From: Macrotis lagotis
Lineage: Eukaryota > Chordata > Mammalia > Peramelemorphia > Peramelidae
Direction of reading: 5' to 3'
Length of the DNA stretch: 64,000 nt
Assembly (NCBI RefSeq): GCF_037893015.1
Contig: NC_133666.1
Span: 264,609,609 to 264,673,608 of the forward strand
The notes below the pieces were generated by a model that saw nothing but the letters and a program-made list of their open reading frames with translations, was not told where the DNA came from and made no database searches. A program made the position numbers and the translations under genes. Below are positions 25,331 to 54,176 of this stretch, piece after piece. How positions within the stretch are numbered: position 1 is the first letter of the stretch; the number at the start of each line of letters is the position of its first letter.

Positions 25331-25390
25331 TGTTACTTTAAGAGATAACGATTTAAGAATTCAGAATACTAGTTAGCATTTCTTTGAATA

Positions 25391-25610: not shown

Positions 25611-25643
25611 AAATAAATTCAAGTTTTTTTTAAAAAACAGCTG

Positions 25644-25788: not shown

Positions 25789-25799
25789 CTATCTGGCCC

Positions 25800-26965: not shown

Positions 26966-27342
26966 CTGCTAAACTAACGATATTAGGACTTCACTGCCAG
27001 TTTGAAGGCAGAAAATTGCACTGCCCGCAGGGACCCATCTGCTCGGGTCCTGGCAGGGCGGGACTGGACACAGAGACAGGGGAGAAGCTCAGGTGTCTTC
27101 CTTTGAGACCTCTGGGAAACGGCTGTAGCCAGGAGAGAAAAGAGTGAAGTGTTTTCCAGGACTTTTTTACAAAAAAAAAAACCTAGATGAAAAATGACCA
27201 ACTCTATTATTTTGACATCACATTCAAAACGGAATTTGAATATCACATCTTCAATATAGAAAGCTTAGGAACATAGTTATCATATATGAGAATCTCTTAT
27301 ATATTTCTAAAACTTTAGTAAGAGATCAAGAATAGTCACAAC
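26966..27342. other. AT-rich sequence between CpG island and telomere-like array
   Basis: No gene or SINE. It contains an A-run (27168-27181) that could be an old poly-A tail. Confidence 0.4.
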
Positions 27343-27414: not shown

Positions 27415-27456
27415 GGGGGCAACTAGATGACACAGTACATAGAGTACCAGCACTGG
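27415..27456 (+). mobile_element. SINE 5' head, cut at the telomere-like array
   Basis: GGGGGCAACTAGATGACACAGTACATAGAGTACCAGCACTGG is the head of the tRNA-derived SINE family (GGGGCRGCTAGGTGGCGCAGTGGATAGAGCACCGGCCCTGG). It runs straight into TTAGGGTTAGG with no remaining SINE body. Confidence 0.82.
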
Positions 27457-27489
27457 TTAGGGTTAGGTTTAGGGTTAGGGTTGCTTTAG

Positions 27490-27590
27490 GATTAGGGTTA
27501 GGGTGAGGGTGAGGGGGTGACAGTGAGAGTTAGGGTGAGGGTGAGGGTGAGGGGGTGACAGTGAGAGTAGGGTAGGGTGAGGGTGAGGGT
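27490..27590 (+). repeat. GGGTGA-variant subarray with a duplicated 18 bp phrase
   Basis: GGGTGAGGGTGAGGGG is followed by GTGACAGTGAGAGT, and the whole phrase then repeats within about 50 bp. GGGTGA hexamers recur near 27727. This variant type is concentrated at the left edge of the array. Confidence 0.8.
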
Positions 27591-29688
27591 TAGGGTTAGA
27601 GCTGGGTTAGGGTTAGGGTTACGGTTAGCCTGGATCTGAAAAATTAGGTTTAGGGTTAGGGATAGGGCTAGGGTTAGGGTTAGGGTTAGGGTTAGAGTTA
27701 GGGTTAGGGCTAAGGTTAGGGTTAGGGTGAGGGTGAGGGTGAGGGTTAGCCTGGATCTGAAAAATTAGGGTTAGGGTTAGGGTTAGGGTTGTGGTTCAGT
27801 TTAGGGTTAGGTTAACGGTTAGGGTTTGGGTTATGGTTAGGTTTAGGGTTAGATTTAGGTTTAGGGTTAGGGTTAGGGTCGGAAAAAAATTAGGCTTAGG
27901 GTTAGGGTTGGATCGGACAAAAGTGTTAGTGTATGAAATTAGGGTTAGGCTTAGGGTCAAGGAGTAGGTTTAGTGTTACGGTTAGGGTTAGGGTTAGGTT
28001 TACAATTAGGATTAGGATTAGGGATAGCGTTAGGGTTAGGGTTAGAGTTAGGGTTAGGGTTAGGGTTAGGGTTAGGGTTAGGGTTAGGGTTATGGTTAGA
28101 GTTAAGGTTGGGGTTAGGGTTAGGGTTAGGGTTAGGGTTAGGGTTAGGGTTAGGGTTAGGGTTAGGGTTAGGGCTAGGGTTAGGGTTAGCGTTAATTTAG
28201 GGTCCGGGTCAGGGTTAGGGTTAGGTTTAGGGTTACATTTAGGGTTAGAGTTCGGGTTCAGATTTGGATTAGGTTTAAGATTAGGGTTAGGGTTATTGTT
28301 AGGGTTTGGATTAAGTTTAGTGTTAGTGTTAGCGTTATGGTTATGGCTAGGGTTAGGGTGTTATTTTAGAGTTAGGGTTAAAATTAGGCTTAGGTTTAGC
28401 GTTTGGGTGATGGTTCGGGTTAGGGTTAGGGTTAGGGAGTAAGGTTACAGTTAGGGTTAGGCTTAGGATTCGTCTTAGCGTTAGCTTTAGGGTTAGGGTT
28501 AGGGTGGGAATTTAAGGTTAGGCTTAGGGCTATTGAATAGGGTTAGGATTAGTGTTCGAGTTCGGGTTAGGGTTAGGGTTAGGGTTAGCTTTAAGGTTAG
28601 GGTCAGGGTCAGGGTTAGGGTTAGGTTTAGGATTAGTGTTAGGTTTAGGTTTAGGGTTAGGGTTGGGATTATTGTTAGGGTTAAGTTTAATAATGGGGTT
28701 ATTGTAAGTGTTAGGTTAGGGATAAATTTAGGTTTAGGGTTAGGGTTAGGTTAGGGTTAGGGTAAGCATTAGGGTTAGGGTTAGGGTTAGGGTTAGGGTT
28801 AGGGTTAGGGTTAGGGTTAGGGTAAGCATTAGGGTTAGGGTTAGTGTTAAGGTTAGGGTTTAAGGTTAGGGTAGGGTTAGGGTTACCGTTAAGGTTAAGG
28901 TTAGGGTTAGGGTTAGATGTAGGGTTAGGTTCAGCTTTAAGGTTAGCATTAGGGTTAGGGTTCGTGCTAGTGTTAGTGTTAGTTTTAGGGTTAGGATTAT
29001 GGTTAGGGTTAGGGTTAGGATTAGGTTCGGAAAAAAATTAGTCTTAGGGCTAGCGTTGGATCAAACAAAAGTGTTAGGGTTAGGGTTAGGGTTAGGGTTA
29101 GAGTTAGGGTTGGAAAAATTAGCGTCAGGGTTAGGTTTAGGGTTAGGTTTGGGGTTTAGAGTTAGGGTTAGGGTAAGGGTTAGGGTTAGCGTTAGGGTTA
29201 AGGTCAGGGTCAGGGTTAGTGTTAGGTTTAGATTTAGGGTTAGGGTTCGGGTTGTGATTAGCATTAGGTTTAAGATTAGGGTTAGTCTTAGGGTTATGGT
29301 TATGGCTAGTGTTAGGGAGTTGTTTTAGAGTTAGGGTTAAGCTTAGGCTTAGGGCTAGGTATTGCTTTATGGTTAGGGTTAGGGTTAGGGTTAGGGTTAG
29401 GGTTAGGGTTAGGGTTAGCTTTAGGGTTAGGGTTAGGGTCTTTAATTAGGCTTAGGCTTTGGACTAAGGAATAGGATTTGGGTTAGTGTTCGGGTTTGGG
29501 TTAGGGTTAGGGTTACAGTCAAGTTGAAGGTTAGTGTTAGAGTTAGATTTAGGGTTAGGGTTAGATTTAAGGTTAGGGTTAGGTTTAGGGTTTTTGATAG
29601 TGTTATGGTTAGGGTTAGGAGTAGGGGTAGGGTTAGGTTTAGGATTATGATTAGGGTTAGGATTAGGGTTGGGGTTAGGGTTAGGGTC

Positions 29689-30300
29689 AGTGAAAATTTA
29701 AGATTAGTTTTTCAAAAAAATTAGGTTCAGGTTTCGGGAATTCGCGTTAGGTTTTCGGTTAGCGTTCGTGTTAGGGTTAGGTTTAGGCTTAAGTTAAGCA
29801 AAAATTAGGGTTCGGTTTCATGTTAGGGTTAGGGTTATGTTTATGTTTAGGCTTATGGTTAGGCCTGGATCAGAAGTTAGGGTTAGGGTTATGGTTAAGG
29901 TCAGGGTTAGGGTTAGAGTTAGGGTTAGGGTTAGGGTTAGGGTTTGGGAATTAGGGTCAGGGTTAGGGTTAGTATTAGGATTAGGGTTAGAGTTAGAGCT
30001 AGGGTTAGGGTTAGTGTTAGCGTTAGCATTAATTTAGGGTCAGGGTCAGGGTTAGTGTTAGGTTGAGGGTTAGGGTTAGGGTTAGGTTTGGGGTTAGGGT
30101 TGGGACTAGGGTTAGGGTTAGGGTTAGGGTTAGATTTAGTGTTAGGTTTAGGGTTAGAGTTCGGGTTCAGATTTGGGTTAGGTTTAAGATTAGGGTTAGG
30201 GTTATTGTTAGGGTTTGGGTTAAGTTAAGGGTTAGTGTTACGGCTAGGGTTAGGGTGTTGTTTTAGAATTAGGGTTAAACTTAGGCTTAGGGTTATGGTT
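29689..30300 (+). repeat. Left member of a ~600 bp long-range duplication
   Basis: GTGAAAATTTAAGATTAG, TTTTTCAAAAAAATTAGG, GGAATTCGCGTTAGGTTTTC, AGTTAAGCAAAAATTAGGG and AGGCCTGGATCAGAAGTTAG occur in this order here and at 33767-34330. The two then run in parallel through a GCATTAATTTAGGGTCAGGG segment. Confidence 0.8.
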
Positions 30301-30454
30301 AGGCTTAGGGTTAGCCTTAGCATTATCTTTAGGGTTAGGGTTAGTGTTGGAAATTAGGGTTAGGCTTACGTTTAGGGAGTAGGTTTAAGATTATGTTTAG
30401 GGTTAGAGTGAGGGTTGGAAAAATTAGCTTTAGGGTTAGGGTTAGGGGTTAGGT

Positions 30455-30488
<34 letters not shown>

Positions 30489-30490
30489 CA

Positions 30491-30522
<32 letters not shown>

Positions 30523-31507
30523 AGGGTTAGGGTTACCATTAAGGTTAAGTTTAGGGTTAGGGTTAGATGTAGTGTTAGGGTCAGCTTTAAGGTTAGCATT
30601 AGGGTTAGAGTGTTAGTGTTAGTTTTAGGGTTAGGATTATGGTTAGGGTTAGGGTTAGAGTTAGGGTTAGGGTTAGGGTTTGGGAATTAGAGTCAGGGTT
30701 AGGATTAGCATTAGGATTAGAGTTAGGGCTAGGGTTAGGGTTAGTGTTAGCATTAGCATTAATTTAGGGTCAGGGTCAGTGTTAGGTTTAGGGTTAGGGT
30801 TAGGTTTAGGGTTGGGGTTAGGGTTGGGACTAGGGTTAGGGTTAGGGTTAGGGTTAGATTTAGTGTTAGGTTTAGGGTTAGAGTTCGGGTTCAGATTTGG
30901 GTTAGGTTTAAGATTAGGGTTAGGGTTATTGTTAGGGTTTGGGTGAAGTTTAGGGTTATGGTTACAGCTAGGGTTAGGGTGTTGTTTTAGAGTTAGGGCT
31001 AAATTTAGGCTTAGGGTTAGGGTTAGGTTTAGGCTTAGGTTTAGGGAGTAGGTTTAGGATTACGGTTGGGGTTAGAGTGAGGGTTGGAAAAATTAGCTTT
31101 AGGGTTAGGGTTAGGCTTTGGGTTGGGGTTTAGAGTTTTTAGGGTTAGGTTTTAGGGTTAGGCTTAGGCTTAGGGTTAGGGTTATTGTTAGGGTTTGGTT
31201 TAAGTGTATGTTTAGTCTTAGGATTATGGTCATGGCTCGGGTTAGATTGTTGTTTTAGAGTTAGGGTTAACCTTAGGGTTAGGGTTTTGGTCGGAAATTA
31301 GGGTTAAGCTTAGGGAATAGGGTTAGGGTGGGTTAGGTTTAGGGTTAAGGTTACAGTTTAAGGTTAGCGTGAGGGTTATATTTACGTTTAGGCTAAGTGT
31401 TAGGGTTTGTGCTAGTGTTAGGGTTAGGGTTAGGGGAAGGGGGAGGGTTAGGGTTAGGTTTAGGGTTAGGTTTAGGGTTAGGGTTAGTGTTAGTGTTAGT
31501 GTTAGGG

Positions 31508-31760
31508 TATAGATTAGGGTTAGGGTTAGATTTAGGGTTAGAGTTAGATCTAAGGTTAGGGTTAGGGTTAGGGTTTGTGCTAGTGTTAGTGTTAGGGTTA
31601 GGGTTATGGGTAGGAGCAGGGTTAGGGTTAGGGTTAGGCTTCGGAAATTAGGATTAGTGTTAGGGTTAGGATTAGGGTTAGGGTTAGGGTTAGGATTAGT
31701 TTTAGGTTTAGGGTTCGTGTCAGATTAGGGTCATGGTCAGGGTTAGTGTTAGCTTTAAGG

Positions 31761-31798
<38 letters not shown>

Positions 31799-32440
31799 AG
31801 GATTAGGGTTACCGTTAAGGTTAAGGTTAGGGTTAGGGTTAGATGTAGGTTTAGGGTCAGCTTTAAGGTTAGCATTAGGGTTAGGGTTTGTGCTAGTGTT
31901 AGTGTTAGTTTTAGGGTTAGGATTATGGTTAGGGTTAGGGTTAGGATTAGGTTCGGAAAAAATTATTCTTAGGGCTAGCGTTGGATCAAACAAAAGTGTT
32001 GGGGTTAGGGTTAGGGTTAGGGTTAGGGTATAGGTTAGGGTTAGGGTTAGATTTAGGGTTAGAGTTAGATCTAAGGTTAGGGTTAGGGTTAGGGTTTGTG
32101 CTAGTGTTAGTGTTAGGGTTAGGGTTATGGGTAGGAGCAGGGTTAGGGTTAGGGTTAGGCTTCAGAAATTAGGATTAATGTTAGGGTTAGGATTAGGTTA
32201 GGGTTAGGGTTAGGATTAGTTTTAGGTTTAGGGTTCGTGTTAGATTAGGGTCATGGTTAGGGTTTGTGCTAGTGTTAGTGTTTGGGTTAGGGTTACGGCT
32301 AGGAGCAGGGTTAGGGTTAGGGTTAGGCTTTGGAAATTAGGATTAGTGTTAGGGTTAGGATTAGGGTTAGGGTTAGGGTTAGGATTAGTTTTAGGTTTAG
32401 GGTTTGTGTTAGATTAGGGTCATGGTCAGAGTTAGTGTTA
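31508..32440 (+). repeat. Imbricated duplication, ~230 bp phrase in about three copies
   Basis: A phrase running from ATAGATTAGGG or ATAGGTTAGGG through AGAGTTAGATCTAAGG, GTTATGGGTAGGAGCAGGG and CAGAAATTAGG/CGGAAATTAGG to AGATTAGGGTCATGG is present at about 31508-31745 and 32029-32255. A third, partial copy continues from about 32255 to 32440 (ACGGCTAGGAGCAGGG, TTTGGAAATTAGG). Confidence 0.78.
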
Positions 32441-32969
32441 GCTTTTAAGGTTAGGGTCAGTGTCAGGGTTTGTATTAAATTTAACGTTAGGGTTAGGCTT
32501 CGGAAATTAGGATTAGTGTTAGGGTTAGGATTAGTGTTAAGGTTAGGATTCGTGTTAGATTAGGGTCAGGTTCAGGGTTAGTGTTATCTTTAGGGTTAGG
32601 TTTAGGTTTAGGGTTAGATTTAGGGTTAAGGTTCGATTTAAGCTTAGGTTTAGGGTTAGGGTTTGTGCTAGTGTTAGTGTTAAGTTTAGGGGTAGGGGTA
32701 GGGTTAGGGTTTGGGTTAGTTTCAGAAAAAATATTTGTCTTGGGGTTAGAGTTGGATTAGACAAAAGTGTTTGGGTTAGGGTTAGGTTTAGGTTTAGGGT
32801 TACAGTTAGGCTTAGTGTTAGGATTTCATTCGGAAATGAGGGTTAACCTTAGGGTTAGGGAATAAGGTTTGGGTTAGTTTTAGGGTTAGAGTTAGGGTTA
32901 GGGTCAGGGTCAGGGTTAATTTTAGGTTTCGGGTTAAGGTTAGTTTTAGGGTTAGGGTTAGGGTTAGGG

Positions 32970-33561
32970 TAAATCTGGATTGGAAAATTAGTGTTAGTGT
33001 TAGGGTTAGGGTTAGGGTTAGTGTTATGGTTATGTTTAAACTTAGGGTTAGGATTAGGGTTAGATTTAGGGTTAGGGTTAGATTTAATGTTAGGGTTAGG
33101 TTTAGGGTTTTTGATAGTGTTATGGTTAAGGTTAGGGGTAGGGATAGGGTTAGGTTTAGGATTATGATTAGGGTTAAGGTTAACGTCAGAAATTAGGGTT
33201 AGGCTTAGGGCTAGGGAATAGGGTTTGGGTTAGTGTTCAGGTTCATGTTAGGGTTAGGGTTAGGGTAAATCTGGATTGGAAAATTAGTGTTAGTATTAGG
33301 GTTAGGGTTAGGGTTAGGGTTAGTGTTATGGTTATGTTTAAACTTAGGGTTAGGATTAGGGTTAGATTTAGGGTTAGGGTTAGATTTAATGTTAGGGTTA
33401 GGTTTAGGGTTTTTGATAGTGTTATGGTTAAGGTTAGGGGTAGGGATAGGGTTAGGTTTAGGATTATGATTAGGGTTAAGGTTAACGTCAGAAATTAGGG
33501 TTAGGCTTAGGGCTAGGGAATAGGGTTTGGGTTAGTGTTCAGGTTCATGTTAGGGTTAGGG
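32970..33561 (+). repeat. Tandem duplication, 296 bp unit, two copies
   Basis: TAAATCTGGATTGGAAAATT starts near 32970 and again near 33266. Both copies continue through ATGTTTAAACTTAGGG, GGGTTTTTGATAGTGTTATG, GGTTAACGTCAGAAATTAGG and GGTTCATGTTAGGG with almost no differences. Confidence 0.9.
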
Positions 33562-33766
33562 TTATGGTTGAGGTTAAGGTTAGGGTTAGGGTTAGATTTA
33601 GGGTTAGAGTTAGGATTAGTGTTTTGCTAGTGTTAGGGGTTGGGCTAGGGTTAGGGTTAGGGTTAGGGTTAGATGTAGGGTTATGGTCAGCTTTAAGGTT
33701 AGCATTAGGGTTAGGGTTTGTGCTAGTGTTAGTGTTAGTTTTAGGGTTAGGGTTAGGGTCAGTGAA

Positions 33767-34330
33767 AATTTAAGGTTAGTTTTTCAAAAAAATTATGTCA
33801 GGTTTCAGGAATTCGCGTTAGGTTTTCGGTTAGGGTTTGCCTTAGGGTTAGGTTTAGGCTTAAGTTAAGCAAAAATTAGGGTTCGGTTTCATGTTAGGGT
33901 TAGGGTTATGTTTATGTTTAGGCTTATGGTTAGGCCTGGATCAGAAGTTAGGGTTAGGGTTAGGGTTATGGTTAGGGTCAGGGTTAGGGTTAGGGTTTGG
34001 GTATTAGGGTCAGGGTTAGGATTAGGATTAGGGTTAGAGTTAGGGCTAGGGTTAGGGTTAGTGTTAGCATTAGCATTAATTTAGGGTCAGGGTCAGGGTT
34101 AGTGTTAGGTTTAGGGTAAGGGTTGGGGTTAGGGTTGGGACTAGGGTTAGGGTTAGGGTTAGGGTTAGGTTTAGGGTTAGAGTTTGAGTTCAGATTTGGG
34201 TTAGGTTTAAGATTAGGGTCAGGGTTATTGTTAGGGTTTGGGTTAAGTTTAGTGTTATGGTTACGGCTAGGGTTAGGGTGTTGTTTCAGAGTTAGGGTTA
34301 AATTTAGGCTTAGGGTTAGGGTTTGGGTTA
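33767..34330 (+). repeat. Right member of the ~600 bp long-range duplication
   Basis: Partner of 29689-30300, about 4.08 kb downstream in the same orientation, with scattered substitutions (for example GTTAGGGTTTGCC where the left copy has GTTAGCGTTCGTG). Confidence 0.8.
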
Positions 34331-34464
34331 GGCTTAGGCTTAGGGTTAGGCTCAGCATTATCTTTAGGGTTAGGGTTAGGGTCGGAAATTAGGGTTAGGT
34401 TTAGGATTAGGGAATAGGTTTAGGATTACGGTTAGGATTAGAGTGAGGGTTGGAAAAATTAGTT

Positions 34465-34496
<32 letters not shown>

Positions 34497-37400
34497 AGGG
34501 TTAGGGTTACTGTTAAGGTTAAGGTTAGGGTTAGGGTTAAATGTAGGGTTAGGGTCAGCTTTAAGTTTAGCATTAGGTTTAGGGTTTGTTCTAGTGTTAG
34601 TGTTAGTTTTAGGGTTAGGATTATGGTTAGGGTTACGGTCAGGGTTAGATTTAGTGTTAGGTTTAGGGTTAGGTTTAGGGTTAGGGTTAGTTCGGGTTCA
34701 GATTTGGGTTGGGTTTAAGATTAGGGTTAGGGTTATTGTTAGGGTTTCGGTTAAGTTTAGGCTTATGGTTACGGCTAGGGTTAGGGTGTTGTTTTAGAGT
34801 TAGGGTTAAATTTAGGCTTAGGGTTAGGGTTTGGGTTATGGTTAGGCTTAGGGTTAGGCTTAGCATTATCTTTAGTGTTAGGGTTAGGGTTGGAAATTAG
34901 GGTTAGGCTTAGGTTTAGGGAGTAGCTTTAGGATTACGGTTAGGGTTAGAGTGAGGGTTGGAAAAATTAGATTTAGAGTTAGGGTTAGGGTTAGGGTTAG
35001 GGTTAGGGTTAGGGGTTAGGGGTTAGGGTTAGGGTTAGGGTTAGGGTTAGGGTTAGATTTAGGGTTAGGGTCAGCTTTAAGGTTGGCATTAGGGTTAGGG
35101 TTTGTGCTAGTGTTAGTGTTAGTTTTAGGGTTAGGATTATGGTTACGGTTAGGGTTAGGGTTAGGTTCTGAAAAAAAATTAGTCTTAGGGCTAGGGTTGG
35201 ATCAGAAGAAAGTGTTTAAGGTTAGGGTTAGTTTTTTGTTTACGGTTAGGCTTAGGGTAAGGGTTTCTTTTGGAAATTAGGCTTAGGTTTAGGGTTAGGG
35301 AATAAATAGTGTAAGGATTGGAAAAATGAGGTTTAGGATTAGGGTTATGGTTTAGGTTTACAGTTAGGGTTTTGGTTAGGGTTAGGGTTAGCATTAGGGT
35401 TAGGGTTAGCGTTAGGGTTAGGGTTAGGCTCAGGGTTAGGGTTAGAGTTAGGGTTAGGATTAGGGTTTGGAAATTAGGGTTCTGGTTAAGGTTTGGATTA
35501 GGGCTAGGGTTAGGATTAGAGTTACGGTTAGTGTTAGCGTTAGGTTTAGGGTTAGGGTTAGCGTTAGCGTTAGGGTCAGGGTCATGGTTAGTGTTATCTT
35601 TAGGGTTAGGGTTAGGGTTAGGGCTAGTCTTAGTGTTAGGTTTAGATTTAGGGTTAGGTTTAGGGTTAGGGTTCAGGTTGCGATTAGAGTTAGGTTTAAT
35701 ATTAGGGTTAGGGTTATTGTTAGGGTTTGGGTTAAGTTTAGGGTTAGTGTTAGGGTTATGGTTATGGCTAGGTTTAGGGAGTATTTTTAGAGTTAGGGTT
35801 AGACTTAGGCTTAGGGCTAGGTATTGCTTTATGGTTAGGCTTAGGGTTAGGGTTAGGGAGTAGGGAGTAGGGTTAGGGTTAGCGTTAGGCTTATATTTAG
35901 CTTTAGGGTTAGGGTTAGGGTCTGAAATTAGGTTTAGGCTTTTTACTAGGGAATAGGATTAGGGTTAGTGTTTGGGTTCGGGTCCAGGTTAGGGTTACGG
36001 TCAAGTTTAAGGTTAGGGTTAGGGTTAGATTTAGGGTTAAGGTTAGATTTAATGTTTAGGGTTAGGTTTAGGGTTTTTGATAGTGTTAAGGTTAAGGTTA
36101 GGGGTAGGGGTAGGGTTAGGTTCAGGATTATGATTAGGGTTAGGGTTAATGTCAGAAATTAGGGTTAGGTTTAGGGCTAGGGAATAGGGTTAGGGTTAGT
36201 GTTTGGGTTCATGTTAGGGTTAGGGTTACGGTTGAGGTTAAGGTTAGGGTTAGGGTTAGATTTAGGGTTAGAGTTAGGGTTAGTGTTTTGCTAGTGTTAG
36301 GGTTAGGGTTAGGGGTAGGGTTAGGTTCAAAAAAATAATTCGTCTTTGGGCTAGGGTTGGATCAAACAAAAGTGTTAAGTTTAGGGTTAGGTTTAGGTTT
36401 CAGGAATTAGGGTTAGTGTCAGGGTTAGGGTTATTATTAGGGTTAGGATTAAGGTTAGTGTTAGGTTTAGGGTTAGGGCTGTGCTTAGGATTATGTTTAG
36501 GCTTAGGGATAGGTTCCCCAATTAGGGTTAGGCTTAGGGATAGGGAATAGGGTTAGGGTTAGTGTTTGGGTTCGCGTTAGGGTTAGGGTTACAGTTAAGG
36601 TTAAGGTTAGGGTTAGATTTTGGGTTTGTGTTTGTGCTAGTGTTAGAGTTAGGTTTAGGGATAGGCGTAGGGTTAGGGTTAGGGTTAGGTTCAGAAAAAA
36701 ATTAGTCTTAGGGCTAGGGTTGGATCAGACAAAAGTGTTAAGATTAGGGTTAGGTTTGGGTTTAGGGTTAGGTTTAGGGTTAGGGGATAGGGTTAGGGTT
36801 AGAGTTAGGGTTGGAAATATTAGGGTTAGGTTAGGTTTAAGGTTAGGGTTAGGGTTGGGGTTTAGGGTTAGGGTTAGGGTTAGCATTAGGGCTAGGGTTA
36901 GGGTCAGGGTTAGTGTTAGGGTTAGGGTTAGGGTGAGGGTTAGGGTTGGGATTGGGGTTAGGGTTAAGTTTAGGGTTAGTGTTAGGGTTATGGTTAAGCC
37001 TAGGGTTAGGGAGTTGTTTTAAAGTTAGTGTTAGGTTTAAGTTTAGGTTTAGGATTAGGGTTAAGGTTAGGCTTAGGGTTACTGTTAGGGAGTAGGATTA
37101 GGGTTAGGTTTAGGGATAGTCTTAGAGTTAGGTTTAGGGTTAGGGTTTGTGCTAGTGCTAGTGTTAGGGTTGGGGGAGGCGGTGGGTTAGGGTTAGGGTT
37201 AGGGTTAAGGTTAGGGTCAGGGTTAGCTTTAGAATTATTGTTAGGGTTAGGGTCTGGAAATTAGGGTTAGGGTTAGTTTTAGGATTAGGGTTAGGGTTGG
37301 TGTTAGTATTAGGTTAGGGTTAGGTTTAGCGTTAGGTTAGGTTCAGGGTCAGGGTTCGTGTTAGGTTTAGGGTTAGTTTTAGGGTTGTGATTAGGGTTAG

Positions 37401-38554
37401 GGTTAGAGTTAGGGTTATGGTTAGCTTTAAGGTTAGGGTCATTGTCAGGGTTAGTGTTAGGTTTAGGTTAGGGTTAGGGTTTATCATTAGGGTTAAGATT
37501 AGGGTTAGGGTTAGGGTTGGGTTAGGGCTAGTGTTAGGGTTAGGGTTTAGGGTTAGGGTGATGGTTAGCGTTAGGGTTAGGGTTATTGTTAGGTTTTGGA
37601 TTAAGTTTAAGGTTAGTGTTAGGGTTATGTTTATGGCTACAGTTAGAGAGTTGTTTTAGGGTTAGTTTTAGGTTTAGGATTAAGTTTAGGTTTAGGGTTA
37701 GGGTTAGGGTTATGGTTAGGCTTAGGTTTAGGTTTAGGAAGTAGCGATAGGGTTAAGGCTAGGGTTAGGGAGTTGTTTTAAGGTTAGTGTTAGGTTTATT
37801 TTTAGGGTTAGGGTTAGGGTTATGGTTAGCCTTAGGGTTACTGTTAGGGAGTAGGATTAGGGTTAGGGTTAGGGTTAGTCTTAGAGTTAGGTTTAGGGTT
37901 AGAGTTTGTGCTAGTGTTAGGGTTAGGTTTAGAGGTAGGGATAGGGTTAGTTTTAGGGTTAGGATTAGGGTTAGTGTTAGGGTTAGGGTTACATTTAGGG
38001 TTAGGGTTAGGGTTATGGTTAAGTTTAAGGTTAGGGTGAGGGTTAGATTTTGGGTTAGGTTTAGGGTTAGGGTTTGTGCTAGTGTTAGGGTTAGGGTTGG
38101 GGAGGGGGGAGGGTTATGGTTAGGTTTAGGGTTAGGGTTAGTGTTAGGCTTAGGGTTAGGTTTAGGGTTAGGATTAGGTTCAGAAAAAAATTAGTCTTAG
38201 GGCTAGGGTTGGATCAGACAAAAGTGTTAAGGATAGGTTTAGGTTTATTTTTATGGTTAGGCTTAGGGTTAGGGTTTTGTTCGGAAATTTGAGTTAGGTT
38301 TAGGTTTAGGGAACAGGGTTAGGGTTGGAAAAATTAGGGTTAGGGTTAGGGTTACTGTTTAGCTTTAGGGTTAAGGTTTGGGTTAGGGTTACGGTCAGCA
38401 TTAGCGTTAGGGTTAGGGTTAGGGTTAAGCTTAGGGTTAGGGTTAGGTAGTAGGGTTAGGGTTAGGGTTACGGTTAGGGTTAGAGTTAGGCTTAGGGTTT
38501 GGTTTAGGGTTAAGGTTTGGCATTATGGTTACGCTTAAGGTTAGGGTTAGGGTT

Positions 38555-41500: not shown

Positions 41501-42205
41501 TAGGCTTAGTGTTAGGGTTATTGTTACTGCTAGGGTTAGGAAGTTGTTTTAGGGTTAGGGTTAGGTTTAGGTTTAGGTTTAGGGTTAGGGTTAGGGTTAA
41601 GGTTATGGTTAGTCTTATGGTTAGGGTTAGGGTTAGGGTTAGGGTTAGGGTTAGGGTTAGGTTTAGGTTTAGGTTTAGGGTTAGGTTTAGGGGTAGGGTT
41701 AGGGTTAGGGTTAGGCTTCGGAAATTAGGATTATGGTTAGGGTTAGAATTAGGGTTAGGGTTAGGGTTAGGATTAGTTTTAGGGTTAGGGTTAGTGTTAG
41801 ATTTAGGGTTAGGGTTAGGGTTAGGGTTAGGTTTAGGTTTAGGGTTAGGGTTGGGGTTTAGAATTACGTTAGGGTTAGGGTTAGGGTTAGGGTTAGGGTT
41901 AGGGTTAGGGTTAGGGTTAGGCTTTGGAAATTAGGATTATGGTTAGGTTAGAATTAGGGTTAGTGTTAGTTAGGATTAGGGTTAGGGTTTGGGTTAGGCT
42001 TAGGGGTAGGGTTAGGGTTCGCTTTAGGGTTAGGTTTAGGTTTAGGGTTAGGGTTAGGTTTAGAGTTAGGGTTAGGGTTAGGGTTAGGGTTAGGGTTAGG
42101 GTTAGGGTTAGGGTTATGATTAGGGTTAGGGTTAGGGTTAGGGTTAGGATTAGTTTTAGGCTTAAGGTTAGTGTTAGATTAGGGTCAGGGTCAGGGTTAG
42201 TGTTA

Positions 42206-42238
<33 letters not shown>

Positions 42239-44073: not shown

Positions 44074-44114
<41 letters not shown>

Positions 44115-47100
44115 GGTTAGGGTTATGATTAGGGTTAGGGTTAGGGTTAGGGTTAGGGTTAGTTTTAGGCTTAAGGTTAGTGTTAGATTAGGGTCAGGGT
44201 CAGGGTTAGTGTTAGCTTTAGGGTTAGGGTTAGGGTTAGGATTGGGTTTAGTGTTAGGCTTAAGATTAGTAATAGGGTTATTGTAAGGGTTATGGTTAGG
44301 GTTAAGGTTAGGGTTAGGGTTAGGGTTAGGGTTAGGGTTAGGGTTAGGGTTAGGGTTAGGGTTAGGGTTAGGGTTAGGGTTAGATTTAGGGTTAGTGTTA
44401 GATTTAGGGTTACAGTTAGTGTTAGGGTTTGTGCTAGTGTTAGGGTTAGGGTTAGGGGTAGGTGTAGGGTTAGGGTTAGGGTATTAGTTATGGTTAGCAT
44501 TAGGGTTAGGTTCGAAAAATATTCTTAGGGCTAGGGTTTGATTAGACAAAAGTGTTAGGCTTAGGGTTTAGTTAAGTTTAGAGTTAGGCTTAGGGTTATG
44601 ATTACAGCTAGGGTTACAGTTAGGGTTCAGAAATTAGTCTTTAGGGTTAGGGTTAGGGTTAGAGTTCGGGGGTAGGCTTAGGATTATGTTTAGGGTTAGG
44701 GTTAATGTCGGAAATTAGGGTTAGGCTTAGGGCTAGGGAATAGGGTTAGGGTTAGTGTTCAGGTTTGGGTTAGGGTTAGGGTTCCGGTTAAGGTTATATT
44801 TAGGGTTAGGGTTAGATTTAGGGTTAGAGTTAGGGTTAGTGTTTGGCTAGTTTTAGGGTTAGGGTTAGGGATTGGGATAGGGTTAGCGTTAGGGTTAGGG
44901 TTAGGATTAGTGTTAGGGTTAGGGTTAGGTTCGAAAAAACAATTAGTCTTAGGGCTAGGTTTGGCTCAGACAAAAGTGTTAGGGTTAGGGTTAGGCTTAG
45001 GCTTAGTGTTAGGCTTAGGGTTAGGATTTCATTCAGAAATTAGGATTTGGCTTAGGGTTAGTGAATAGAGTTAGGGTTGGAAAAATTAGCATTAGGGATA
45101 GGTTTAGGGTTAGGGTTGGGGTTTAGAGTTAGGGTTAGAGTTAGGGTTAGGGTTTTAGAGTTAGGGTTAGGGTTAGAGTTAGCATTAGAGTTAGGGTTAG
45201 GGTAGGGTTAGGGTTACGGTTAAGGTTAAGGTTAGGGTTACAGTTTGATTTAGGGTTAGGGTCAGATTTAAGGTCAGTGTTAGGTTTAGGGTTTGTGCCA
45301 GTGTTAGGGTTAAGGTTAGGTTTAGGCTTTGTGTTAGGCTTAGGGTTAGTATTTCATTCGGAAATTAGGGTTTGGCTTAGGGTTAGGAAATATGGTTAAG
45401 ATTAGTGTTAGGGTTAGATTTAAGGTTGGAAAAATTAGCGTTAAGGTTAGGTTTAGGGTTAGAGTTAGGGTCAGGGTCATGGTGAGTGTTAGGTTTAGGG
45501 TTAGGCTCAGTTTTAGGATTAGGGTTAGGGTTGGAAATAGGGTTAGGGTTAAGATTAGGCTTAGTGTTAGGGTTATTGTTACTGCTAGGGTTAGGAAGTT
45601 GTTTTAGGGTTAGTGTTAGGTTTAAGTTTAGGGTTAGGGTTAGGGTTAGGGTTAAGGTTATGGTTAGTCTTATGGTTAGTGTTAGGGAGTAGGGTTAGGG
45701 TTAGGGTTAGGGTTAGGTTTAGGTTTAGGTTTAGGGTTAGGTTTAGGGGTAGGGTTAGGGTTAGGGTTAGGCTTCGGAAATTAGGATTATGGTTAGGGTT
45801 AGAATTAGTGTTAATGTTAGGGTTAGGATTAGTTTTAGGGTTAGGGTTAGGGTTAGGGTTAGGGTCAGGGTCAGAGTTAGTGTTAGCTTTAGGGTTAGGT
45901 TTAGGTTTAGGATTAGGGTTGGGGTTTAGAATTACGTTAGGGTTAGGGTTAGGGTTAGGGTTAGGGTTAGGGTTAGGCTTTGGAAATTAGGATTATGGTT
46001 AGGTTAGAATTAGGGTTAGTGTTAGGGTTAGGATTAGTTTTAGGGTTAGGGTTAGTGTTAGATTAGGGTCAGGGTCAGAGTTAGTGTTAGCTTTAGGGTT
46101 AGGTTTAGGTTTAGGGTTAGGGTTAGGGTTAGGGTTAGGGTTAGGGTTAGGGTTAGGGTTAGGGTTAGGGTTATGATTAGGGTTAGGGTTAGGGTTTGGG
46201 TTAGGATTAGGATTAGTTTTAGGCTTAAGGTTAGTGTTAGATTAGGGTCAGGGTCAGGGTTAGTGTTAGCTTTGGGGTTAGGGTTAGGGTTAGGATTGGG
46301 TTTAGTGTTAGGCTTAAGATTAGTAATAGGGTTATTGTAAGGGTTATGGTTAGGGTTAAGGTTAGGGTTAGGGTTAGGGTTAGGGTTAGGGTTAGGGTTA
46401 GGGTTAGGGTTAGGGTTAGGGTTAGATTTAGGGTTAGTGTTAGATTTAAGGTTACAGTTAGTGTTAGGGTTTGTGCTAGTGTTAGGGTTAGGGTTAGGGG
46501 TAGGTGTAGGGTTAGGGTTAGGGTATTAGTTATGGTTAGCATTAGGGTTAGGTTCGAAAAATATTCTTAGGGCTAGGGTTTGATTAGACAAAAGTGTTAG
46601 GCTTAGGGTTTAGTTAAGTTTAGAGTTAGGCTTAGGGTTATGATTACAGCTAGGGTTACAGTTAGGGTTCAGAAATTAGTCTTTAGGGTTAGGGTTAGGG
46701 TTAGAGTTCGGGGGTAGGCTTAGGATTATGTTTAGGGTTAGGGTTAATGTCGGAAATTAGGGTTAGGCTTAGGGCTAGGGAATAGGGTTAGGGTTAGTGT
46801 TCAGGTTTGGGTTAGGGTTAGGGTTCCGGTTAAGGTTATATTTAGGGTTAGGGTTAGATTTAGGGTTAGAGTTAGGGTTAGTGTTTGGCTAGTTTTAGGG
46901 TTAGGGTTAGGGATTGGGATAGGGTCAGCGTTAGGGTTAGGGTTAGGATTAGTGTTAGGGTTAGGGTTAGGTTCGAAAAAACAATTAGTCTTAGGGCTAG
47001 GTTTGGCTCAGACAAAAGTGTTAGGGTTAGGGTTAGGCTTAGGCTTAGTGTTAGGCTTAGGGTTAGGATTTCATTCAGAAATTAGGATTTGGCTTAGGGT

Positions 47101-50100
47101 TAGTGAATAGAGTTAGGGTTGGAAAAATTAGCATTAGGGATAGGTTTAGGGTTAGGGTTGGGGTTTAGGGTTAGGGTTAGGGTTAGGTTTAGGGTTAGAG
47201 TTAGGGTTAGGGTAGGGTTAGGGTTACGGTTAAGGTTAAGGTTAGGGTTACAGTTTGATTTAGGGTTAGGGTCAGATTTAAGGTCAGTGTTAGGTTTAGG
47301 GTTTGTGCCAGTGTTAGGGTTAAGGTTAGGTTTAGGCTTTGTGTTAGGCTTAGGGTTAGTATTTCATTCGGAAATTAGGGTTTGGCTTAGGGTTAGGAAA
47401 TATGGTTAAGATTAGTGTTAGGGTTAGATTTAAGGTTGGAAAAATTAGCGTTAAGGTTAGGTTTAGGGTTAGAGTTAGGGTCAGGGTCATGGTGAGTGTT
47501 AGGTTTAGGGTTAGGCTCAGTTTTAGGATTAGGGTTAGGGTTGGAAATAGGGTTAGGGTTAAGATTAGGCTTAGTGTTAGGGTTATTGTTACTGCTAGGG
47601 TTAGGAAGTTGTTTTAGGGTTAGTGTTAGGTTTAAGTTTAGGTTTAGGGTTAGGGTTAGGGTTAAGGTTATGGTTAGTCTTATGGTTAGTGTTAGGGAGT
47701 AGGGTTAGGGTTAGGGTTAGGGTTAGGTTTAGGTTTAGGTTTAGGGTTAGGGTTAGGGTTAGGGTTAGGCTTCGGAAATTAGGATTATGGTTAGGGTTAG
47801 AATTAGTGTTAATGTTAGGGTTAGGATTAGTTTTAGGGTTAGGGTTAGTGTTAGATTAGGGTCAGGGTCAGAGTTAGTGTTAGCTTTAGGGTTAGGTTTA
47901 GGTTTAGGATTAGGGTTGGGGTTTAGAATTACGTTAGGGTTAGGGTTAGGGTTAGGGTTAGGCTTTGGAAATTAGGATTATGGTTAGGTTAGAATTAGGG
48001 TTAGTGTTAGGGTTAGGATTAGTTTTAGGGTTAGGGTTAGTGTTAGATTAGGGTCAGGGTCAGAGTTAGTGTTAGCTTTAGGGTTAGGTTTAGGTTTAGG
48101 GTTAGGGTTGGGGTTTAGAGTTACGTTAGGGTTAGGGTTAGGGTTAGGCTTCGGAAATTAGGATTAGGGTTAGGGTTATGATTAGGGTTAGGGTTAGGGT
48201 TTGGGTTAGGATTAGGATTAGTTTTAGGCTTAAGGTTAGTGTTAGATTAGGGTCAGGGTCAGGGTTAGTGTTAGCTTTAGGGTTAGGGTTAGGGTTAGGA
48301 TTGGGTTTAGTGTTAGGCTTAAGATTAGTAATAGGGTTATTGTAAGGGTTATGGTTAGGGTTAAGGTTAGGGTTAGGGTTAGGGTTAGGGTTAGGGTTAG
48401 GGTTAGGGTTAGGGTTAGGGTTAGGGTTAGGGTTAGATTTAGGGTTAGTGTTAGATTTAAGGTTACAGTTAGTGTTAGGGTTTGTGCTAGTGTTAGGGTT
48501 AGGGTTAGGGGTAGGTGTAGGGTTAGGGTTAGGGTATTAGTTATGGTTAGCATTAGGGTTAGGTTCGAAAAATATTCTTAGGGCTAGGGTTTGATTAGAC
48601 AAAAGTGTTAGGCTTAGGGTTTAGTTAAGTTTAGAGTTAGGCTTAGGGTTATGATTACAGCTAGGGTTACAGTTAGGGTTCAGAAATTAGTCTTTAGGGT
48701 TAGGGTTAGGGTTAGAGTTCGGGGGTAGGCTTAGGATTATGTTTAGGGTTAGGGTTAATGTCGGAAATTAGGGTTAGGCTTAGGGCTAGGGAATAGGGTT
48801 AGGGTTAGTGTTCAGGTTTGGGTTAGGGTTAGGGTTCCGGTTAAGGTTATATTTAGGGTTAGGGTTAGATTTAGGGTTAGAGTTAGGGTTAGTGTTTGGC
48901 TAGTTTTAGGGTTAGGGTTAGGGTTGGGGTTAGGGTTAGGGTTAGGGTTAGGGTTAGGGTTAGTGTTAGGGTTAGGGTTAGGTTCGAAAAAACAATTAGT
49001 CTTAGGGCTAGGTTTGGCTCAGACAAAAGTGTTAGGGTTAGGGTTAGGCTTAGGCTTAGTGTTAGGCTTAGGGTTAGGATTTCATTCAGAAATTAGGGTT
49101 AGGGTTAGGGTTAGGGTTAGGGTTAGTGAATAGAGTTAGGGTTGGAAAAATTAGCATTAGGGATAGGTTTAGGGTTAGGGTTGGGGTTTAGAGTTAGGGT
49201 TAGAGTTAGAGTTAGCATTAGAGTTAGGGTTAGGGTAGGGTTAGGGTTACGGTTAAGGTTAAGGTTAGGGTTACAGTTTGATTTAGGGTTAGGGTCAGAT
49301 TTAAGGTCAGTGTTAGGTTTAGGGTTTGTGCCAGTGTTAGGGTTAAGGTTAGGTTTAGGCTTTGTGTTAGGCTTAGGGTTAGTATTTCATTCGGAAATTA
49401 GGGTTTGGCTTAGGGTTAGGAAATATGGTTAAGATTAGTGTTAGGGTTAGATTTAAGGTTGGAAAAATTAGCGTTAAGGTTAGGTTTAGGGTTAGAGTTA
49501 GGGTCAGGGTCATGGTGAGTGTTAGGTTTAGGGTTAGGCTCAGTTTTAGGATTAGGGTTAGGGTTGGAAATAGGGTTAGGGTTAAGATTAGGCTTAGTGT
49601 TAGGGTTATTGTTACTGCTAGGGTTAGGAAGTTGTTTTAGGGTTAGTGTTAGGTTTAGGTTTAGGTTTAGGGTTAGGGTTAGGGTTAAGGTTATGGTTAG
49701 TCTTATGGTTAGTGTTAGGGAGTAGGGTTAGGGTTAGGGTTAGGGTTAGGTTTAGGGTTAGGGTTAGGGTTAGGGTTAGGGTTAGGGTTAGGGTTAGGGT
49801 TAGGGTTAGGCTTCGGAAATTAGGATTATGGTTAGGGTTAGAATTAGTGTTAATGTTAGGGTTAGGATTAGTTTTAGGGTTAGGGTTAGTGTTAGATTAG
49901 GGTCAGGGTCAGAGTTAGTGTTAGCTTTAGGGTTAGGTTTAGGTTTAGGATTAGGGTTGGGGTTTAGAATTACGTTAGGGTTAGGGTTAGGGTTAGGGTT
50001 AGGGTTAGGGTTAGGCTTTGGAAATTAGGATTATGGTTAGGTTAGAATTAGGGTTAGTGTTAGGGTTAGGATTAGTTTTAGGGTTAGGGTTAGTGTTAGA

Positions 50101-50400
50101 TTAGGGTCAGGGTCAGAGTTAGTGTTAGCTTTAGGGTTAGGTTTAGGTTTAGGGTTAGGGTTAGGGTTAGGGTTAGGGTTAGGGTTAGGCTTCGGAAATT
50201 AGGATTAGGGTTAGGGTTATGATTAGGGTTAGGGTTAGGGTTTGGGTTAGGATTAGGATTAGTTTTAGGCTTAAGGTTAGTGTTAGATTAGGGTCAGGGT
50301 CAGGGTTAGTGTTAGCTTTAGGGTTAGGGTTAGGGTTAGGATTGGGTTTAGTGTTAGGTTTAAGATTAGTAATAGGGTTATTGTAAGGGTTATGGTTAGG
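38555..50400 (+). repeat. Higher-order repeat: six ~2.0 kb units
   Basis: Units begin at AGATTTAGGGTTAGTGTTAG near 38555, 40376, 42361, 44382, 46424 and 48435, giving periods of 1821, 1985, 2021, 2042 and 2011 bp. Each unit carries the same ordered landmarks: GGTTCGAAAAATATTC, GTTCGGGGGTAGGC, GGTTCGAAAAAACAATTAG, GGATTTCATTCAGAAATTAGG, GAAATATGGTTAAGATTAG, GAAGTTGTTTTAGGG and GGCTTCGGAAATTAGG. A stretch near 42822, 44843 and 46885 translates identically over 66 residues, so the units are nearly identical. They differ mostly in the length of perfect TTAGGG runs. Confidence 0.92.
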
Positions 50401-50438
50401 GTTAAGGTTAGGGTTAGGGTTAGCATTAGGGTTAGGGT

Positions 50439-50469
<31 letters not shown>

Positions 50470-53400
50470 CTATGGTTAAGGTTAAGGTTAGGGTTAGGGT
50501 TAGGGTTAGATTTAGGGTTAGGGTCAGATTTAAGGTTAGCGTCAGGGTTTGGGTTTTTGCTAGTGTTAGGGTTAGGGTTAGGGTTAGGATTATGGTTAGG
50601 TTCAGAAAAACAATTAGTCTTAGGGTTAGGGTTGGATCAAACAAAAGTGTTCGCGTTAGGTTTACGTTTAGTCTTAGGCTTATGCTTAGGATTTTGTTCG
50701 GAAATTAGGGTTTTTCTTAGGTTTAGGGAATAGGGTTAGGGTTAGGGTTAGGGTTAGGATTAGAGTTAGGGTTGGAAAAATTAGCTTTAGGGTTAGTTTT
50801 AGGGTGAGGGTTGCGGTTTAGAGTTAGGGTTGGGGTTAGGGTTAGGGTTACGGTAGGGTTAGGGCTACGGTTAAGGTTAAGATTAGGGTTAGGGTTAGAT
50901 TTAGGGTTAGGGTCAGGTTTAAGGTTAGCATTAGGGTTTGGGTTTGTGCTAGTGTTAGGGTTAGGGTTAGGATTATGGTTAGGGTTAGGGTTAGGTTCAG
51001 TAAAAAAATTAGTCTTAAGGCTAATATTGGATCAAACAAAAGTGTTAGGGTTAGGTTTAGGTTTAGTGTTAGGCTTATGGTTAGGATTTCGTTGGGAAAT
51101 TAGGGTTTGTCTTAGGTTTAGGGAATAGAGTTAGTGTTAGGGTTAGGGTTAGAGTTAGGGTTGGAAAAATTAGCTTTAGGGTTAGGGTTAGGGTTTAGAG
51201 TTAGGATGAGGGTTAGGGTTAGGGTTAGGGTCAGGATTAGGGTTAAATTTAGGGGTAGGATTAGGATTAGGGTTAGGGTTTTTGTTATGGTTATGGTTAG
51301 GGTTAGGGTTTTGGTTAGTGTTAATTTTAGTGTTAGGGTTTCAGAAAAATTAGGTTTAGGGTCTGAAAATTAGGGTTAGGGTTTGGGTTAGGATTCGTGT
51401 TCGGGTTAGGGTTATAATTATGTTTAATGTTATGGTTAGGCCTGGATCAGAAATTAGGGTTAGTGTTAGGGTTAGGTTTAGGTTTAGGGTTAGGTTTATG
51501 GTTAGTGTTAGGTTTATGGTTAGGGTTAGTCTTAGGGTTACAGTTAGGGTTGAGGTTATGGTTACAGTTAATCTTAAGGTTAGGGTGAGGGTTAGATTTA
51601 GGGTTAGGGTTTGTGCTAATATTAGGGTTAGGGTTAGGGGAGGGGGAAGGTTAGGGTTAGGTTTAGGGTTAGGGTGAGGATTAGGCTTAGTTTTAGGCTT
51701 AGGGTTAGGGTTAGGTTCAGAAAATAATTAGTCTTAGGGCTAGGGTTGCATCAGAAGAAAGTGTTAAGGTTAGGGTTAGTTTTATGTTTAGGGTTAGGCT
51801 TAGGGTAAGGGTTTCTTTTGGAAATTAGGCTTAGGGTTAGGGAATAGGGTTAGGGTTGGAAAAATTAGGGTTAGGGTTAGGGTTATGGTTTAGGTTTATG
51901 GTTAGGGTTTGGGTTAAGGTTAGGGTTAGTGTTAGGGTTAGGGTCAGGGTTTGGGTTAGAGTTAGGGTTAGGGTTAGGGTTCGGAAATTAGGGTTAGGGT
52001 TATGGTTATGATTAGGGTTAGTGTTAGGATTAGGTTTACGGTTAGGGTTAGCATTAGGTTTAGGGTTAGGGTTAGGGTTAGGGTTAAGGTTAGGGTTAGG
52101 ATTAGTGTTAGGTTTAGATTTAGGGTTAGGTTTAGAGTTAGGGTTTGGGTTGCGATTAGCCTTAGGGTTAAGATTAGAATTAGGGTTATTGTCAGGGTTT
52201 GGGTTAAATTTAGGGTTGGTGTTAGGGTTATGGTTATGGCTAGGGTTAGGGAGTTGTTTTAGAGTTAGGGTTCAGCTTAGGCTTAGGGTTAGGGTTAGGG
52301 TTTGTTTTATGGTTAGGTTTAGGGTTAGGGTTAGGGAGTAGGGTTAGGGTTAGCATTAGGCTTAGGGTTAGGTTTAGGGTTAAGGTTAGGGTCAGAAATT
52401 ATGCTTAGGCTTTGGACTAGGCAATAGGATTAGGGTTAGTGTTCGTGTTCGGGTTAGGGTTACGGTCAAGTTTAAGGTTAGAGTTTGGTTTAGATTTAGG
52501 GTTAGGGTTAGATTTTAGATTAGGGTTAGGTTTAGGGTTTGTGATAGTGATATGGTTAGGATTAGGGTAGGGGTAGGGTTAGGTTTAGGTTTAGGATTAT
52601 GTTTAGGGTTAGGGTTAATGTCAGAAATTAGGGTTAGGTTTAGGGCTAGGTAATAGGTTTAGGGTTAGTCTTCAGGTTTGGGTTAGGGTTATGGTTACAG
52701 TTAAGGTTAAGTTTAGGGTTAGGGTTACATTTAGGGTTAGGGTTAGGGTTAGTGTTTTGCTAGTGTTAGGGTTAGGGTTTGGTATTGGGGTATGGTTAGG
52801 GTTAGGCTTAGGGTTAGTGTTAGGTTTAGGTTTAGGTGTTAGGGTTAGGGTTAGGTTTATTGGGTTTAGGGTTAAGATTAGGGTTATGGTTGGTTATGGC
52901 GAGGGTTAGGGAGTTGTTTTAGGGTTAGTGTTAGGTTTAAGTTTAGGTTTAGGTTTAGGGTTAAGGTTAGGGTTAGGGTTAGGCTTAGGGTTACATTTAG
53001 GTTTAGGGTTATGTTTAGGGTTAGTGTTACAGTTAAGGTTAAGGTTAGGGTTAAATTTTAGGGTTAGGGTTAGATTTAAGGTTAGCGTTAGGGTTTGTGC
53101 TAGTGTTAGGGTTAGGTTTAGGGGTAGGGGTAGGGTTGGGGTTACTATTATGGTTAGGGTCAGGGTTAGGGTTAGGCTTAGAGTTAGGGTTAGGTTCAGG
53201 AAAAAAATTAATCTTCGGGCTAGGTTTGGATCAGACAAAAGTGTTAGGGTTAGGGTTAGGCTTAGGTTTAGGGTTAATCTTAAGGTTAGGGTTTCATTTG
53301 GAAATTAGGGTTAGGCTTAGGGTTAGGGTTAGGGTTAGGTTTAGGGTTAGGGTTAGGGTTAGGGTTGGAAATATTAGGGTTAGGGTTAGGTTTAAGATTA

Positions 53401-54133
53401 GGGTTAGGTTTGGGGTTTAGGGTTAGGGTTAGGGCTAGGGTCAGGGTCAGGGTTAGTGTTATGGTTAGGGTTAGGGTTAGTTTTAGGGTTAAGGTTAGGG
53501 TTGGGATTGGGGTTAGGGTTAAGGTTAGGGTTAGGGTTAAGGTTATGGTTACGGCTAGTGTTAGGGAGTTGTTTTAGGGTTAGTGTTAGGTTTAGGTTTA
53601 GGTTTAGGTTTAGGGTTAGGATTAGGGTTAGGGTTAGCCTTAAGGTTAGGCTTACGATTATGGTTATGATTAATGTTAGGTTTAGATTTAGGGTTAGGGT
53701 TAGGTTTAAGTTTAAGTTTCGTTTTGGGGTTAGGCTTAGGGTTTGGGTTCACCTTAGCGTTAGGTTTAGGCTTAGGTTTAGCATTAGGGGTTGGAATTAG
53801 GATTAGGGTTAGGGTTAGGGTTCAGAATTAGGGTTAGGTTAGGGTTAGGGTTAGGGTTAGGGTTAGGGTTAGGGTTAGGGTTAGGGTTTTGAATAGGGTT
53901 ACTGTTAGGCTTAGGGTTAGTGTTAGGTTTAGGGTTAGCGTTATGGTTTCAGAAAATTAGGGTTAGGGTTAGGGTTAGCCTTAGGCTTTGGGTTAGGGTT
54001 ACAATTAGGGTTAGGGTTAGTGTTAGGTTTAGGGTTAAGGTCATGGTTTCGCATTAGTGTTAATGTTGGGGTTAGGGTTAGGTTTGGGCTTAGTGTCAGG
54101 GTTAGGGTTAGGATAATGGTTAGGATTAGTGTT
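50400..54133 (+). repeat. Right flank of the array, diverged non-HOR telomere-like repeat
   Basis: Landmarks of the array persist (CAAAAGTGTT modules near 50588, 50994, 51715 and 53193; GAGTTGTTTTAG near 52245, 52910 and 53565). The regular 2 kb spacing is lost and the sequence of units diverges. Runs of perfect hexamer reappear near 53840-53890. Confidence 0.85.
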
Positions 54134-54176
54134 AGCTGTGTGACTTTGGGCAGTTGACTCTTAACCCCATTATCTT
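54134..54176 (+). mobile_element. SINE 3' part, resuming after the telomere-like array
   Basis: AGCTGTGTGACTTTGGGCAG, then TTGACTCTTAACCCCATTATCTTATG, matches the family's GCTGTGTGACCTTGGGCAAGTCACTTAACCCCATTGCCTT. It has the same orientation as the cut SINE head at 27415-27456. About 55 bp of the SINE body between the two parts is absent. Confidence 0.82.

Follow-up and report, generated by a model that had tools for sequence, protein, structure and literature searches.

A 26.7 kb telomere-type satellite of the greater bilby with a likely origin inside a single SINE

We analysed a window of 64,000 nucleotides from the greater bilby, Macrotis lagotis (C9:264609609-264673608, containing no N), which carries at 264.6 Mb of a 704.7-Mb scaffold a 26.7 kb array of degenerate telomere-type repeats, i.e. 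a large interstitial telomeric sequence (ITS). The array is bounded by two parts of a tRNA-derived short interspersed nuclear element (SINE). It is not a plain decayed telomere tract. Rather, we consider it likely that the SINE was broken first, that a telomeric seed was inserted into it, and that this seed grew in place into a higher-order satellite. All genome searches described here were made in the species' own assembly of 3,655,600,598 bases in 607 contigs.

SINE parts bounding the array

The array and its two boundaries are laid out as follows.

27415..27456, forward strand: 5' part of the host SINE, WSINE1-like, consensus positions 2-42 (alignment); its last GG also fits the register of the array.
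27455..54135, forward strand: degenerate (TTAGGG)n array in a single orientation (Tandem Repeats Finder row, period 6).
54132..54135, forward strand: TTAG at the right junction, which reads as array or as SINE (C/TTAGCTG; from the sequence).
54134..54184, forward strand: 3' part of the host SINE, consensus positions 93-134 up to 54176, then a possible A/T-rich tail (alignment).

A SINE consensus was built from six young copies within the window. The head (27415-27456) is identical to consensus positions 2-42 at 32 of 41 positions (score 23, against a maximum of 13 in 2000 shuffles), and the tail aligns to positions 93-134 with 35 matches, 7 substitutions and 2 gap bases (score 24.5, 2000-shuffle maximum 14). 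The two parts have the same orientation, share no consensus position and leave 50 consensus positions missing between them. Telomeric repeats here interrupt a pre-existing sequence, as in short ITSs (s-ITSs) inserted at breaks, the interrupted sequence being a SINE whose two complementary parts fit the same subfamily. The original prediction had assigned 27415-27456 and 54134-54176 to the 5' head and 3' part of one SINE type in the same orientation and had proposed to check for complementary, non-overlapping coverage. Both the coordinates and the coverage hold in these shuffle-tested alignments. The small loss that it had put at about 55 bp is confirmed as such, but measures 50 consensus positions.

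At the left junction, the SINE (...CACTGG) passes into TTAGGG, and the GG at 27455-27456, which fits either, is in register with TTAGGG. At the right junction, TTAG (54132-54135) is common to SINE and array. Beyond it, the 3' piece may continue into an A/T-rich end resembling the TTAAATAAATA tails of two sampled SINE copies (found by pattern) and the shorter version in a third copy, L024_7099. Head and 3' body of the host element match the SINE consensus, and an A/T-rich end is possible; the name "WSINE1-like" refers to similarity of layout to the element of PMC3403934, not to a comparison with a library consensus.

Whether the two parts derive from one element was addressed by chance and by subfamily. 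The sampled SINE set holds 72 matches (nhmmer, E < 1e-3) in 109,487 bases, MIR-like and partial ones included. At this density, a single insertion falling within a SINE with at least 25 bases on each side has P ~0.053, and two independently chosen boundaries would produce the observed arrangement with P ~0.00067. The ratio is 78, and it becomes 352 when only the 16 AATAATTA-type copies are counted. A genome search with the left flank (597 bases) returned 33 rows, with one full-length match and no full-length paralogue among them; of the other 32, one covers query positions 12-187 at 76% and 31 cover the SINE end at 78-95%. We took 12 of these 31 as head-like copies (identity 89-95%, from the upper part of the list; two of them, L078 and L079, are near-identical neighbours). 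At a diagnostic site in the tail, 11 of the 12 carry A, as does the host tail, compared with A in 6, G in 18 and T in 1 of 25 sampled WSINE1-like copies, and A in 10 and G in 19 (one unaligned) of 30 sampled copies picked by tail match. The best combined match to head and tail among the 72 sampled copies is L024_7099, located at most 10 kb beyond the right end of the window; it also leads the ranking by tail and takes third place by head. On these sequence comparisons, the chance calculation and the subfamily agreement favour one element. Neither the difference in subfamily nor the overlap between halves that would speak for two elements was found, and the earlier claim that the array lies inside a single SINE is supported by the complementary halves and the subfamily fit.

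Some further features of the flanks can be recorded here. Directly left of the array, window positions 25000-27150 are GC-rich (53% in 25001-27000), and the four open frames scanned there gave no Pfam match; among the 15 flank reading frames of at least 110 codons, none of the 10 scanned contained a Pfam domain. At 23089-23224, the 3' part of a SINE is duplicated in tandem with a period of 68.

Internal architecture and genome-wide comparison

All 1631 TTAGGG hexamers of the array lie in the same orientation, CCCTAA being absent. Inside it, self-comparison resolves two arms and a core, together with the following features.

27492..27589, forward strand: 38 bp tandem, rich in TGAGGG, on the left margin of the array (tandem repeat scan).
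27876..27929, forward strand: first copy of a near-private complex motif (TTCAGAAAAAAATTAGTCTTAGGGCTAGGGTTGGATCAGACAAAAGTG type; motif search), the last copy of which ends at 53247.
28255..38471, forward strand: left arm of degenerate repeats, in which stretches are locally duplicated (offsets 302, 508-522, 724, 3298-3311 and 4071, among others; self-comparison).
38472..50469, forward strand: core, six tandem higher-order repeat copies of ~2.0 kb, starting at 38581, 40402, 42387, 44408, 46450 and 48461 (self-comparison).
40402..40864, forward strand: 463 bp block, identical in five core copies (also from 42387, 44408, 46450 and 48461; copy comparison).
50470..54131, forward strand: right arm, degenerate repeats (self-comparison).

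The first core copy (38581) is shorter by ~200 bp, and across the 15 pairs of core copies substitutions amount to 0.7-3.8%. The repeat signal of the first ~800 and last ~480 bases of the array does not exceed a token-shuffled background by the margin used. Distance from pure TTAGGG is about equal at the edges and in the interior (zone means of 0.167-0.195 edits per base), the first and last three 120-base windows of the array lying at 14-22% edit distance from (TTAGGG)n. The complex motif has 24 matches from 27929 to 53247, 12 of them in the core; between left-arm and right-arm copies its mean difference is 0.145 (16 copies, with 8 core copies left out).

Alignment of five core copies, the shortened first one excluded, yielded 42 events; a long one, at columns 1482-1551, is in part a misalignment. 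In 31 of the 42 a single copy differs from the others. Among these private events, 23 go toward canonical TTAGGG, 4 away from it and 4 in neither direction, whereas 4000 random single substitutions gave 100 toward, 2067 away and 1833 neither. This drift reflects either copying from adjacent canonical tracts (homogenisation) or short-read polishing, and core copy number and some of the internal differences may be assembly effects.

The motif was next compared with the rest of the genome. At up to 2 mismatches, GGATCAGACAAAAGTGTTAG has 37 matches, of which 22 are in the array (12 in the core) and 15 are scattered single sites; the reversed control gave 17, close to the 15 outside the array. A 54-base motif derived from the array copies is 6 edits from its own first copy (L001), and its best matches in other telomeric loci are at 14-20 edits (L002-L014, L016-L022 and L029-L040; L015 is all N). 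The array was also cut into 200-base chunks, with the repeats at 42387-50469 left out, and 2 of the 46 chunks score at least 4 points above the shuffled baseline when matched to 12 other telomeric stretches (75.8 kb). In the control, the chunks of other loci that match are 10 of 13 for L016, 11 of 12 for L020, 7 of 13 for L012, 4 of 13 for L017 and 2 of 5 for L009, counts to be read in the knowledge that L016/L022, L019/L020, L009/L018 and L011/L012/L021 each derive from a common contig or region. Kb-scale offsets recur in all six other telomeric stretches examined, most weakly in L009. Higher-order structure may thus be a habit of this class of degenerate telomeric arrays; the units of the 26.7 kb array look local. 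The near-confinement of the motif and the nested repeats support growth in place, and the original claim that a seed grew into a satellite at a single locus fits the motif's distribution and the sole full-length match of the left flank.

A genome search with the 463 bp core block listed 100 matches at 70-88%, and because the window's own copies were not among them it is no test of absence. As expected, public contigs of viruses and prokaryotes contain no exact match to the motif. Further large arrays of degenerate telomeric repeats in the genome are L009/L018 (C2:208.517 Mb), L010, L011, L012, L013, L017, L021, C540 and the start of C5, and several such arrays end in assembly gaps. L014 (C4:12842500-12848500) contains at 3111-3176 a nearly pure ITS of 60 bp, the neighbours of which are unique or presumably MIR-like.

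Proposed origin and rival explanations

We propose that a WSINE1-like, tRNA-derived SINE was in place before the array. A double-strand break within it would account for the ~50 bp missing relative to the consensus. The left break end would have been GG, in register with TTAGGG, and the orientation of the added repeats is that expected of telomerase, which may have added them. The other end would have been joined via TTAG, presumably by end joining. The seed would then have expanded in place through repeated tandem duplication, while non-telomeric motifs would have arisen or entered once and spread across the array; later, a 2 kb block would have been amplified to six copies. Nested repeats of unequal divergence are observed, and unequal exchange, replication slippage or related copying may have been the motor of growth.

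The founding step would be of a known type, break repair that was probably primed by telomerase: in-register nucleotides and deletions are described for horse ITSs, and interruption of repeats for ITSs associated with telomerase RNA (TERC-ITSs). In the horse, at least 2 in-register nucleotides occur in 24 of 40 informative loci, and a deletion at the break site in 20 of 66 (PMC7215372). Of 27 TERC-ITS loci from primates and rodents, 6 have the tract within a repeat that it interrupts, in one case a SINE (PMC8537989). The adjacent telomerase-RNA copy that characterises TERC-ITSs is not seen in the bilby, where the SINE passes straight into TTAGGG-type repeats at both ends. No telomerase-RNA fragment was recognised at either junction, and an Rfam search of 27300-54300 was empty at E 5, a search which short fragments would escape and which included no comparison with the telomerase RNA of the bilby itself. 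We also considered read-through of telomerase RNA as the source of the AGACAAAA motif and rejected it. The sequence preceding the motif varies (GGATCAGAC, GGCTCAGAC, TGATTAGAC and others), and 171-172 different 6-mers follow TTAG in the array; because these are ~4% of all 6-mers, a single match after TTAG is unremarkable. This candidate is likewise without an Rfam match, in a screen that involved no sequence comparison with the human RNA.

Several observations weigh against one broken SINE and growth in place. As regards growth, the motif counts are not independent, 12 of the 24 and 12 of the 22 matches sitting in the amplified core; the mean score of array chunks is 2.35 points higher than the shuffled baseline, so that this and other telomeric arrays may have a faint order in common; and the arrays from other loci are a sample rather than an exhaustive set. 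Capture of a ready-made telomeric or ITS fragment, which may already have measured kilobases, by end joining at the SINE break and with little growth in place, would draw on that excess over the baseline, and also on the presence in the genome of further large arrays of degenerate telomeric repeats whose internal periods are on the kb scale. Orientation and the GG register are, moreover, weak evidence for telomerase. The 20-base motif is nevertheless near-confined to the array, and only 2 of the 46 chunks clearly match the 12 sampled stretches, whereas those stretches match each other more, so that capture appears unlikely. As regards the single element, the halves do not overlap and so offer no common position for a comparison. 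Nor is the tail as a whole discriminating: its mean score is 21.2 in the 12 head-like copies, little more than the 19.9 (sd 4.1) of 16 sampled copies. No target-site duplication of the host SINE was found, the best score being matched by 80% and 86% of random pairs; such a duplication is present in 3 of 4 younger SINE copies, and the host SINE is older.

The missing duplication and the density of SINE matches are what one would cite for two different SINEs joined by rearrangement or fusion, with the array as the scar. We regard this as very improbable: independent choice is 78- to 352-fold less likely to yield halves that complement each other in order and orientation and are 50 positions apart, the halves agree in subfamily, and the head-to-head TTAGGG/CCCTAA arrangement that is the hallmark of fusion ITSs is absent from the array. 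There is hardly more than a slight chance that flanks or copy number were made by gap filling and polishing. The greater bilby assembly was built from ~10x HiFi reads, with gaps filled and short reads used for polishing (PMC11239497), and the lean of core differences toward canonical TTAGGG (23 of 31) is what polishing with telomeric reads could produce. The window is, however, free of N, and a false join would hardly give two complementary halves of one SINE; an artefact would therefore concern the core copy number and the tract sequence, not the SINE split.

For the origin in a broken SINE, divergence gives an order of events: the host SINE lies ~0.16-0.23 substitutions per site from consensus, array units differ by ~0.16 pairwise, and core copies by the few per cent given above. 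At the WSINE1 rate of 0.0045 per million years (Myr) (PMC3403934), the host SINE dates to ~35 Myr when its tail is compared with the subfamily majority (6 differences in 42) and to 50 +/- 13 Myr when both halves are compared with the window consensus; array units would coalesce near 18 Myr, and the core is much younger than they are. Because the rate is borrowed from another order and neutrality is assumed, only the order of events is trustworthy. The suggestion that the SINE sets a maximum age for the array is valid in principle, but the bound is loose (~35-50 Myr, with wide error).

Smaller counterparts, known systems and meaning

CTCCAGGG followed by two TTAGGG units (1 mismatch) has 10 matches in the genome, and its reversed control has none. 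The flanks of nine were read, the tenth being L034. Three of the 10 begin in antisense SINEs of the host family at the same CCCTGG/CCAGGG box: C9:282781644 and C2:318977267, with SINE scores of 65.5 each (shuffled maxima 13 and 11), and C1:457031737, where the SINE start at the box was read by eye and is unscored. The remaining seven have SINE scores of 3-10, not above shuffles. At the first locus (L064, C9:282781400-282781800), antisense consensus positions 7-111 are followed by the 17 bp TTAGGGTTAGGGTTAGG and then by positions 120-145, with 8 positions lost and the two halves of the SINE retained, a small-scale counterpart of the proposed origin of the 26.7 kb array; the flanks at C9:282.78 Mb have TTCTGT(G/A)ATTCTA in common (12 of 13, a score that 0.9% of random pairs attain), likely a target-site duplication. 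At C1:457.03 Mb (L034, C1:457031894, positions 1352-2112), an ITS of ~760 bp starts within a SINE in antisense orientation, again at the CCAGGG box, and the rest of the SINE does not follow it. In L053 (C2:318977150-318977310), an antisense SINE is followed at the CCAGGG box by two TTAGGG units, beyond which the rest of the SINE was not recognised. The 26.7 kb array begins at the sense side of this box, so that with the three pattern matches four loci are broken there, a raw count unscaled to the abundance of the box.

As a control, another box of the SINE that ends in GGG (CCTTGGG) gave 17 matches, and none of the 8 flanks read lies in a SINE; this control is weak, 5 of the 8 being inside telomeric arrays and 3 informative. 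Of the 4 matches to GCCCTGG-(TTAGGG)2, three are inside telomeric arrays, and the fourth, at C9:76.66 Mb, adjoins DNA without a SINE score. CTCCAGGG itself probably comes largely from SINEs. Tentatively, and with more doubt than confidence, one might see in the SINE box with its antisense AGGG a recurrent landing site for telomerase, in the numerous SINE copies a reservoir of founding sites for ITSs, and in the 17 bp, ~760 bp and 26.7 kb tracts one series from patch to satellite. The landing-site idea is suggestive only.

In alpha satellite, divergent arms flank a younger, more uniform core of multi-monomer repeats. The bilby array resembles such higher-order satellites in its divergent arms and younger uniform core, and differs from them in that its ultimate unit is the telomeric hexamer. 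With short break-repair ITSs (PMC7215372, PMC8537989) it shares a unique site, a small deletion, register at one end and the possibility of sitting in a repeat element, but those are short and nearly exact, whereas the bilby array is 26.7 kb long, degenerate and built of higher-order repeats. TERC-ITS locus 5 of the mouse lemur (PMC8537989) likewise has telomeric repeats within a SINE; unlike TERC-ITSs, the bilby junctions have no recognised telomerase-RNA fragment, although short ones could be missed by the Rfam search. Heterochromatic ITSs (PMC6410037) are, like this array with its 12 kb amplified core, large, amplified and degenerate blocks. In contrast to them, the bilby array has ordinary DNA flanks with SINE halves and a readable founding site.

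Large heterochromatic ITSs are often seen as scars of rearrangement, and their amplification is poorly known (PMC6410037). In searches of the open-licence PMC literature, we found no report of a large ITS traced to one SINE, or of bilby ITSs. Break repair is an established founding route for short ITSs; an array of satellite size that can be followed back to a single element is a new form of this. As the founding site is kept on both sides, a single locus allows the passage from repair patch to satellite to be followed, which could show when the array was seeded, how hexamers gave way to kilobase units and whether new motifs were propagated by duplication. An upper age for the array comes from the SINE, and relatives of the bilby should carry the empty or short state.

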